DNA from: Pseudobutyrivibrio xylanivorans DSM 14809
Lineage (GTDB): Bacteria > Bacillota > Clostridia > Lachnospirales > Lachnospiraceae
Direction of reading: 5' to 3'
Length of the DNA: 64,000 bases
Assembly: GCF_900141825.1 (NCBI RefSeq)
Contig: NZ_FQYQ01000006.1
Location: forward strand, 62,001 to 126,000
Part shown: positions 35,709-37,874 of the stretch, piece after piece
Layout: each line of letters starts with the position of its first letter
Position numbering within the stretch: the stretch's first letter is position 1
Notes under the pieces: generated by a model
What the model saw: the letters and a program-made list of their open reading frames with translations, nothing else
The model's database searches: none
Told to the model about the DNA's origin: nothing
Program-made: the position numbers and the translations under genes

Positions 35709-37322
35709 TTATCCCCAATCCTCGTTTAACCAATTTCTCAGAAGCTGAGCAACAGCCTCTGGTTTCTCATCCACAAACTTTTCAATAAGTATGCGTGCTT
35801 CTGATTTCTCTGTGTACCCAATATCTTCAAGCTCCTCCTCCTCTTCCTGAGCAGTTGAAGCAATAAGATCATCAATAGTAAGCTCCTGTTCCACAGGCTC
35901 CTCTTCTTCAGTCTTAAGACTTCTAAATACAACAAAGCCAAGCATTGCAAAGATAAGAGCTGCAAGTACAATCTGAATGATATCTGTCACTGAGATTGGT
36001 GGTCCTTCAGAATACTGGAACATTGGAATCTCATAAGCCACAACCTTTACATTGGCAGATGGGAAACCAGTAGTTCTGGCAACAACCTCTATAATGTCAT
36101 CTGAAACCTCCTGCTGAACAGGATTTGAATTTGCTTTTACGAATTCGTCAAAGGTCTGTCCTGCTTCTTCTAAGGTTCCATCCTTTTCCATCTTATCTTC
36201 ATTGTAAATTGCAAATTTCTTGCAGGTTACAGAAATTGAAGAATCCTCTAAGCTCTGTTTACCTATCTCATCCTTATGAGTTGTAATCCTTTCATCTGGG
36301 AGATAATCCTTCTCAAAATCCTCTGTAGATGCCTGAGTCTGGTTTTCATCTTCTATTACATATGTGGTATCATCATCATTAGAATCAGTTCCTGGTACGC
36401 CACCGCTACCACCAACAGAACTAGAGCTTGAGCCCTTTTCCCAATCAAGATAGCCCTCTGTACGTCCTTCATCTACTGAATAATCGTAGTTTACATAGCT
36501 ATTTTCATCAAAGCTCATAGAAAGATTGACGCCGACAGAAACAGAATCATAAAGATTTGTTCCCTCAAGAACAGTCTGAACACGTTTCACAATCTCTTCT
36601 CTAGCTTTATCCCTGGCATCCTGATTAGCTGAAGCGGAAGCTCCTGCTGTTCCAGCTTTTGCATTTGGATACAATAGATTTCCTTCTGTATCCATGATTG
36701 TGATGTTATCGGTTGTTTCATTAGCTAGGTTCGTAGCTAAATGCCTTGCCATACCTTCTATAGTTTCTTCTGTTATAGGTGAATTTAGAGTAAGAATTAC
36801 CGAAGACCATCCCGGCTGATTTTGGGCGATAAGAGTACCATCATCCTCTGGTATATTAAGAGTAACTCTTGCCTTATCAACCATCTCAAAGGCCTCAAGA
36901 TCAGAAGCAAACTGCTCCTCTAAAACCTTTTTGTATTTTTTTTGCTTGTCTGCTTCGGTAGATGAAAAACCACCATCGAAAACGTCATCTAAAGAGTATT
37001 TTGATGTAGGAATTTCATTAGAGCCAAGAAGAACATTGGCACGACCTTCATCCTTCTCATCAATGAAGAATGTAAATCCATCCGGAGATGTCTCGTAACC
37101 AATCTTTTCTTCTTCAAGAAGTTCTTTAACGGCAGCAGCCTGCTTACCATCCTCGCATGCTACCAGCTGAATCATTGTAGGCCTTGTAATTACAAAAGCC
37201 AAAATAGCAAAAGACACAATAACAACAGCAGTAATTGAAATGATCAATATCTGCTGTCGTTTTGTAAACTTTCTCCACCACTCTAAAAGTCTGTTTAAAA
37301 TAGCCTGAATTTGTTCTGGCAT
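35709..37322 (-). CDS. fliF: Flagellar MS-ring protein FliF
   Basis: FliF forms the MS ring in the membrane. Membrane helices lie at about 27-48 (ILIISITAVVIVSFAILAFV) and about 445-465 (DIIQIVLAALIFAMLGFVVF). Between them are the ring-building motifs, including EEEKIGYETSPDGFTF and DSSISVTCKKFAIYNEDK. The C-terminal FliG-binding tail is ILIEKFVDEKPEAVAQLLRN and WLNEDW. Length 537. It is separated from fliE by a 246-base gap with a strong three-way structure. Confidence 0.96.
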   Translation of the reverse strand: MPEQIQAILNRLLEWWRKFTKRQQILIISITAVVIVSFAILAFVITRPTMIQLVACEDGKQAAAVKELLEEEKIGYETSPDGFTFFIDEKDEGRANVLLGSNEIPTSKYSLDDVFDGGFSSTEADKQKKYKKVLEEQFASDLEAFEMVDKARVTLNIPEDDGTLIAQNQPGWSSVILTLNSPITEETIEGMARHLATNLANETTDNITIMDTEGNLLYPNAKAGTAGASASANQDARDKAREEIVKRVQTVLEGTNLYDSVSVGVNLSMSFDENSYVNYDYSVDEGRTEGYLDWEKGSSSSSVGGSGGVPGTDSNDDDTTYVIEDENQTQASTEDFEKDYLPDERITTHKDEIGKQSLEDSSISVTCKKFAIYNEDKMEKDGTLEEAGQTFDEFVKANSNPVQQEVSDDIIEVVARTTGFPSANVKVVAYEIPMFQYSEGPPISVTDIIQIVLAALIFAMLGFVVFRSLKTEEEEPVEQELTIDDLIASTAQEEEEELEDIGYTEKSEARILIEKFVDEKPEAVAQLLRNWLNEDWG

Positions 37323-37392
37323 AGACTCTCTCCCCTACAACACATTAAAAAATACCATTCTCCAAAATTACCATAAAACTATTCCCAGATGC

Positions 37393-37470
37393 CTTCACCG
37401 CATTCATAATGGAAGTCTTTCAGACTTCTTTACCGGCACTTCGTGCCTAACATTATTCATGTGGGTGAAG
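37393..37470. repeat. Three-way-junction palindromic element between fliE and fliF
   Basis: Nested inverted repeats: outer stem CTTCACC/GGTGAAG (37393-37399, 37464-37470); second stem CAT/ATG and ATAATG/CATTAT (37401-37411, 37451-37461) with a 2x2 internal loop; inside it, hairpin GAAGTCT-TTC-AGACTTC (37412-37428) and hairpin GGCAC-TTC-GTGCC (37435-37447). All four helices can coexist. No T run or reading frame explains it. The fold works on either strand; the fliE-fliF transcript is the minus strand. The rest of the 37323-37568 gap is AT-rich with nothing else I can identify. Confidence 0.85.
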
Positions 37471-37568
37471 CCACTGATTCCAGTTTAGAAATATTTAATG
37501 ATAATTCTTTTATAAGCAAGCTTAACAAGAATATATCCTTAAATATTTCTATCTGTGAATAGTAGCAT

Positions 37569-37874
37569 TTAGACCTGCATCTGCATTATCTGCTGATAAG
37601 CATCAAGAATTCTATCTCTTACTGCTACAGTGTACTGCAGTGCAGTATTTGCCTTCTTTTCTGCAATCATTAAATCGTGCGTGTTATCAGATTCTCCTAG
37701 CTGCAACGCAATCTGCTCACGATTTACATTCTTTTGTAGGGCATTAGTCTCCTCTAATAACCCCATAGCCGAATCAAGCATGCTCTGGAAACCTGTTGTA
37801 GCATCTACCTTGGGAGTTCTTACGTCTTTTACAGGAGTTCCACCGTATAAACTCTGAAGTGAAGCAATATCCAT
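37569..37874 (-). CDS. fliE: Flagellar hook-basal body protein FliE
   Basis: FliE links the MS ring to the rod. The 101-residue protein has the family C-terminal pattern LGESDNTHDLMIAEKKANTA and LQYTVAVRDRILDAYQQIMQ with MQV at the end. The N-terminus (SLYGGTPVK) is variable as usual. GGGGG lies just upstream. It follows flgC by 29 bases. Confidence 0.94.
   Translation of the reverse strand: MDIASLQSLYGGTPVKDVRTPKVDATTGFQSMLDSAMGLLEETNALQKNVNREQIALQLGESDNTHDLMIAEKKANTALQYTVAVRDRILDAYQQIMQMQV

Follow-up and report, generated by a model that had tools for sequence, protein, structure and literature searches.

The 246 nt gap between fliE and fliF in Pseudobutyrivibrio xylanivorans DSM 14809 is very probably occupied by an old copy of a dispersed, MITE-like palindrome whose fold has been maintained to an unusual degree. 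Copies of the element, here named type 1, are dispersed in the genome, the genus and the gut members of the family Lachnospiraceae, have inverted ends and covary in their stems, and about half of the relatives outside the genus are flanked by 8 bp target site duplications (TSD). Conservation of the interior is not something that an ordinary MITE requires, which counts against this explanation. To judge from the alignments, the unusual feature appears to be an interior fold preserved by matching changes of paired bases across many bacterial genera. No description of type 1 was found in the literature at the level of titles and abstract openings.

A palindromic unit between fliE and fliF

The window, the whole stretch of DNA that was analysed, is 64,000 nt long and includes the gap at 37323-37568. 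The genes on either side lie on the minus strand, and we take them to be fliE (37569-37874) and fliF (35709-37322); these and the other flagellar names used here were assigned by recognising the sequence, not from a family search.

The first-pass annotation had described four nested inverted repeats in the gap and considered them unlikely to have formed by chance. All four stems were found, and the fold of the whole gap was more stable than every shuffle on either strand, at -62.8 kcal/mol (z -8.4; 0/200 shuffles equally stable) on the plus strand and -70.7 kcal/mol (z -4.75; 0/200) on the minus strand. On the minus strand, the outer stem is CTTCACC/GGTGAAG (7 pairs) and the second stem is CAT-GA-ATAATG/CATTAT-GA-ATG (9 pairs with a 2x2 loop). 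As the operon is on the minus strand, it is the minus-strand fold that the transcript carries. The core of the earlier fold is real, but it had been described on the non-transcribed strand and makes up only about half of the unit, which extends over 37375-37566; the long hairpin at 37486-37551 and the terminal arms had not been listed. No terminator-like site was detected within 37200-37700, and a transcription terminator was rejected as a candidate on this ground.

End-to-end alignment with 30 other full-length copies from the genus defines type 1 in the window as a 192 bp element on the minus strand (37375-37566) that starts 2 nt past the fliE stop codon, with the fliF start codon 52 nt downstream. 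Sequence and alignment place terminal inverted repeats (TIR) at both ends, GCTACTATTCACAG (37553-37566; consensus GTTACTATTCACAG) at the 5' end and CTGGGAATAGTTTT (37375-37388; consensus CTGTGAATAGTAAC), which is worn in the window copy, at the 3' end. Between them on the same strand are the AT-rich hairpin A (37486-37551; fold and alignment), whose tip AAGCUUGCUU is GCUUGC, a mini-hairpin ACUG-GAAU-CAGU (37473-37484; alignment and covariation) and stem B (37393-37469; fold and alignment), the forked structure seen earlier. Stem B includes a tandem G-A 2x2 internal loop (37457-37458/37404-37405; fold and alignment) and two triloop hairpins, GGCAC-GAA-GTGCC (37435-37447) and GAAGTCT-GAA-AGACTTC (37412-37428), both identified from fold and covariation.

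Dispersal, target duplications and transposase

A second copy in the source genome, 80% identical to that in the window, is on another contig (G000:C19:121469-121660). The source genome also contains a partial copy (L004 1479-1616) that lacks hairpin A and is near a tRNA-Ser gene and, by eye, a terminator-like hairpin, and three solo GTTACTATTCACAGT sites (L095, L096 and L097 on contigs C23, C26 and C27) with no partner end in the surrounding sequence when up to 3 mismatches are allowed. Sequence matches to type 1 were returned from 18/29 genus genomes, the source included, with up to 9 per genome when some opposite-strand matches of the palindrome are counted. The exact 15-mer of the TIR is present in 20/29 genus genomes and the reversed-pattern control in 0/29. 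When a covariance model built from 31 full-length genus copies was used to search the family, and the best 8 candidates per genome were scored, matches were found in at least 36/299 genomes and at least 35/298 genera. A genome from another genus, G267, has 278 matches to the 15-base end with no more than 1 mismatch, and many of its contigs break off inside the element, as expected from a recent burst; three of its four complete elements (L206, L237 and L262, not L250) have 8/8 TSDs. Type 1 contains no transposase gene and is present in multiple copies, as is characteristic of MITEs. The first pass had offered four guesses: control of the fliE to fliF mRNA ratio, an RNA cleavage site, protein binding and a mobile palindromic unit. 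Dispersed copies with inverted ends fit the last, and the other three drew no support from the comparison of fliE-fliF gaps or from the orientation of copies elsewhere.

A TSD was scored where the flanking 8-mers were identical at 7/8 or more positions (one mismatch allowed), with shuffled flanks as the control. An 8 bp TSD surrounds 25/77 complete TIR-bounded elements (shuffled mean 0.57, maximum 4) and 33/88 elements in a wider set. Among other lengths from 4 to 13 bp, 7 bp alone exceeded the shuffles (4/77; mean 0.55, maximum 3). Outside the genus, 9/17 relatives of 160-205 bp, all 17 of which are also covariance-model matches, have the TSD (mean 0.53, maximum 4). Elements with a CAATGTC core, the IS4-type inner end, at both ends have it in 10/12 cases (mean 0.97, maximum 5), 7 of the 10 being in one genome. 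Inside the genus, where L172 and L173 were placed for these group counts, the TSD was found at just 1/27 copies (mean 0.15, maximum 2). The window copy was left out of the 27 because of its worn end, and has no TSD, as its flanking 8-mers agree at only 4/8 positions. Given 1/27 in the genus and none at the window copy, the latter is probably an old relic of the element. As the genus copies have diverged, loss of the duplications is the simplest reading, though another route is possible.

In other genera, the ends of type 1 are shared with autonomous transposons. In two elements, the same outer ends are followed inwards by IS4-type ends and enclose a gene for an IS4-family transposase. L202 in Catenibacillus scindens (the same place as L276) is 1748 bp, has a TSD at 7/8 and encodes a transposase that matches NF033592 at 168 bits (cutoff 115). 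L277 in Dorea sp. 5-2 has a TSD at 8/8 and 298 aa that can be read before a run of N (an assembly gap); this protein is 35% identical to that of L202 and matches NF033592 at 86 bits, below the cutoff of 115. A further Dorea sp. 5-2 unit, L325, has a TSD at 8/8 and is composite: only one of its sides has the IS4-type inner end, and it contains a second frame that looks unrelated. Inside the genus, an arms-plus-IS4 unit (L218) has no TSD (4/8), and for L210 the better reading is that an IS has entered a GTTACTATTCACAGTAAC palindrome, duplicating 9 bp. The five genus IS4 elements tested (L207, L208, L209, L211 and L213) end at CAATGTC without arms and have 10-11 bp duplications, which makes the link of the 15 bp arms to the IS4 transposase indirect. 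No unit combining arms with a transposase turned up in the source genome, where four IS4 copies are armless on the visible side and have the other side at a contig end. Taking L218, L210 and the five armless elements into account, we infer that the transposase probably comes from IS4-family transposons with the same outer ends.

All five of the armless genus elements sit in terminator-like hairpins, as if targeting terminators.

Palindromes of the IS200/IS605 or REP/RAYT type have no target duplication and depend on a Y1 HUH transposase. Relatives of type 1 outside the genus have 8 bp TSDs in 9/17 cases, and the ends, where they enclose a transposase, enclose one of the DDE type. BOX, ERIC, RUP and the Rickettsia palindromic elements are likewise dispersed palindromes that can sit near or in operons; they are not known to be related to type 1 in sequence or to share its hosts. 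The prokaryotic MITEs Chunjie and QMITE2, as described in a review (PMC10969869), resemble type 1 in being non-coding and approximately 200 bp, with inverted ends and short direct repeats, and in being intergenic, sometimes in operons, with a stable folded transcript. Type 1 differs from the MITEs described there in its multi-branched interior, its covariation and its non-pairing motifs conserved across many genera. The CAATG inner end fits the -AATR pattern listed for the IS4 subgroup in Table 1 of PMC2266710. While the duplications listed for that subgroup are 10-13 bp, units with the 15 bp outer arms have 8 bp duplications, a length within the range given in the same table for IS4Sa, IS50 and ISPepr1.

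Under the explanation we prefer, an element with 14-15 bp inverted ends, and with an 8 bp target duplication in genera with recent-looking copies, would be moved by an IS4-family transposase supplied by transposons that have the same outer ends in other genera. The window copy would have arrived by the same transposition route and is presumably immobile today.

Maintenance of the interior fold

The interior of type 1 is more than what an IS has left behind; a specific multi-branched fold is kept there by compensatory change. In the 31 genus copies, 48/73 pairs have at least one copy in which both sides have changed and pairing is kept. The first-pass annotation had named unconserved pairing in close relatives, or many identical copies elsewhere, as grounds for giving up its reading. 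The outcome was divided: dispersed copies exist, yet pairing proved to be strongly conserved by compensatory change, and type 1 is thus a repeat that is dispersed and nevertheless keeps its fold. Parts that do not pair have also persisted. A loosely defined tandem G-A signature is present in 31/31 genus copies and in 14 of the 33 family-level copies retained after 14/47 alignment rows (opposite-strand, duplicate, short or partial) were dropped; an AA/GC form of the loop is seen in 6 more family copies and neither form in 13. The CUUG tip is found in 25/31 genus and 29/33 family copies.

On a consensus fold chosen by energy, mismatches in the genus alignment were 39 G-T and 21 A-C among 2252 cells, and those in the 33 family-level copies were 72 G-T and 31 A-C among 2151 cells. 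That G-T outnumbers A-C suggests folding of this one strand of the element. G-U makes up 1.8% (genus) and 3.6% (family) of standard pairs, compared with 8.2% in 16 tRNAs taken from these loci, and so low a value suggests that the pairing is maintained at the level of DNA or as single-stranded DNA. The zero A-C count of the tRNAs is an unfair control, as the way in which ARAGORN draws its brackets may leave no room for A-C pairs.

Type 1 shares a terminal closing stem, the GCUUGC tip and a tandem G-A stem with the Clostridiales-1 RNA (RF01699; tabulated in PMC2864571). A full-length match of the window copy to RF01699 scores 25.2 bits (E 0.001-0.005). As this is below the gathering cutoff of 48, as are relatives with up to 40.9 bits, membership was rejected, and as its hairpins come in a different order we have not filed type 1 with Clostridiales-1. 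Relatives in other genera match RF01699 at 32-41 bits in 6/20 loci, one of which (L177) also holds a true member at 128.6 bits. A true member is also present in the source genome, on contig C31, and RF01699 has matches in at least 10/29 genus genomes, a lower bound because a 49.7-bit match in G001 (L042) is outside that count. None of the nine distinct Clostridiales-1-type copies with GTTTCTATTCAG-like ends has an 8 bp duplication (best 5/8), L136 being excluded from the nine as a type-1 copy and L126 and L131 counted as one place; the remaining RF01699 loci have no GTTTCTATTCAG-like ends.

Two readings of the fold other than ours have to be weighed against these data. A neutral palindrome, in which template switching or gene conversion keeps the arms alike and the fold is unselected, would account for the low G-U share and for the near-perfect palindromes of 419-692 bp that have the same ends. 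It would also account for uncompensated changes in recent orthologous pairs, since copies that share a locus differ by a mixture of compensated and uncompensated changes. The window copy and that of its congener G021, which the tree does not show to be one insertion, differ at 11 pairs with compensation, at 8 with a one-sided break and at 1 with a G-U change. Arm-to-arm correction by itself should have removed the non-pairing motifs, such as the tandem G-A signature, and it does not predict more G-T than A-C mismatches; we regard neutrality as unlikely, though it retains some weight. If type 1 were instead a trans-acting structured RNA family, a diverged Clostridiales-1 with repeats that are gene copies and ends that form the closing stem, the full-length RF01699 match, the higher scores of relatives (one of them beside a true member), the common tip and G-A loop and the G-T excess in both alignments, as strand-specific folding gives, would all be understandable. 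Set against this are the scores, all of them below 48 among the type-1 matches found, the different branching order, the 8 bp duplications flanking the ends of relatives and a G-U share well short of that in the tRNAs, and we consider such an RNA family quite improbable.

Three loci hold near-perfect non-coding palindromes, of 419 bp (L099 30-448), 692 bp (L107 1824-2515, which includes a run of N) and 602 bp (L110 1914-2515), with ends that are the same as those of type 1 or nearly so and no 8 bp duplication. A match to TwoAYGGAY (RF01731) at 57.4 bits, above the cutoff, is in the centre of the last (L110 2137-2298). With the best 9 candidates scored, RF01731 matches at least 45/299 family genomes, often in many copies, inside long variable inverted arms. 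In the 27/30 TwoAYGGAY loci that are long enough, inspection by eye revealed long variable arms and no shared end motif. CsrA binding has been proposed for TwoAYGGAY in the account given by PMC4333381. Tentatively, type 1 could be a transposable module of structured nucleic acid, in which IS4-type ends have acquired a fold resembling Clostridiales-1 that must adopt a particular single-strand shape (tandem G-A loop, GCUUGC tip and GNA-type triloops) for the module to spread, and several 'structured RNAs' of gut Clostridia in Rfam (Clostridiales-1 and the TwoAYGGAY core in L110) could be mobile palindromes of the same class; we hold this to be possible and somewhat doubtful.

The flagellar operon and wider meaning

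A fliE match was obtained in 27/29 genus genomes, and the 27 fliE-fliF gaps were compared. Thirteen are 19-38 nt and too short for type 1, and three are 53-66 nt, of which that in L058 has an apparent remnant of a Clostridiales-1-type end, that in L062 a short hairpin and that in L055 nothing recognised. Another palindromic repeat, type 3, is carried by seven gaps, five assigned by sequence match and two (L043, which includes a run of N, and L045) by eye. One gap (L042) contains the 49.7-bit Clostridiales-1 copy and one (L046) has, by eye, a short form with similar ends in which an Rfam scan gave no match. Type 1 is present in 2/27 gaps, those of the source genome and G021, in the latter beside what looks by eye like a type-3 remnant, and in the phylogeny of copies these two do not resolve as one insertion. 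The mixed contents indicate a place that tolerates repeats, not one marked by a single conserved element. In L039, L040, L041, L044 and L061, type 3 lies just past the fliE stop codon, and partial matches to it occur elsewhere in those genomes.

If the element acted in cis on the flagellar operon as an RNA, by setting the ratio of fliE to fliF, by shielding the 3' end of the fliE mRNA or as an RNase site, this would suit the very stable fold without a terminator-like site and the position inside an operon after a stop codon. That position recurs in four congeners (L015, L019, L023 and L153), in which type 1 directly follows a flgG-like gene and the next gene was read as flagellar; a supported clade (95/98) unites three of the four copies, which seem to have been passed on at that site, so some copies have been inherited for a long time. 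Conservation at the orthologous gap, the mark of a cis-regulatory RNA, is not what the comparison revealed, with 13/27 gaps too short, type 1 in 2/27, and type 3, a Clostridiales-1 copy or remnants in the same place in other species. Flagellar genes were recognised beside only 5 of the 30 type-1 copies whose neighbours were examined, and orientation relative to neighbouring genes is mixed. We rejected an operon-specific regulatory RNA on the gap comparison and regard cis action of this kind as very unlikely. A role in fliE or fliF expression is possible but unsupported, and the presence of type 1 in the flagellar operon is probably incidental. Just past the fliE stop codon, with no terminator-like site and a purine-rich stretch before the fliF start codon, the window copy is probably tolerated, and its effect on the operon would be small.

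Covariation alone is no proof of a functional RNA gene, as a mobile palindrome here has double-sided changes at 48/73 pairs. The Rfam authors flag the same problem for plant MITEs taken for microRNAs in the relevant part of PMC4383904, and that misreading would extend to bacterial RNA candidates. Should mobility depend on the interior fold, type 1 would be a MITE with a shaped RNA or single-stranded DNA as its cargo.
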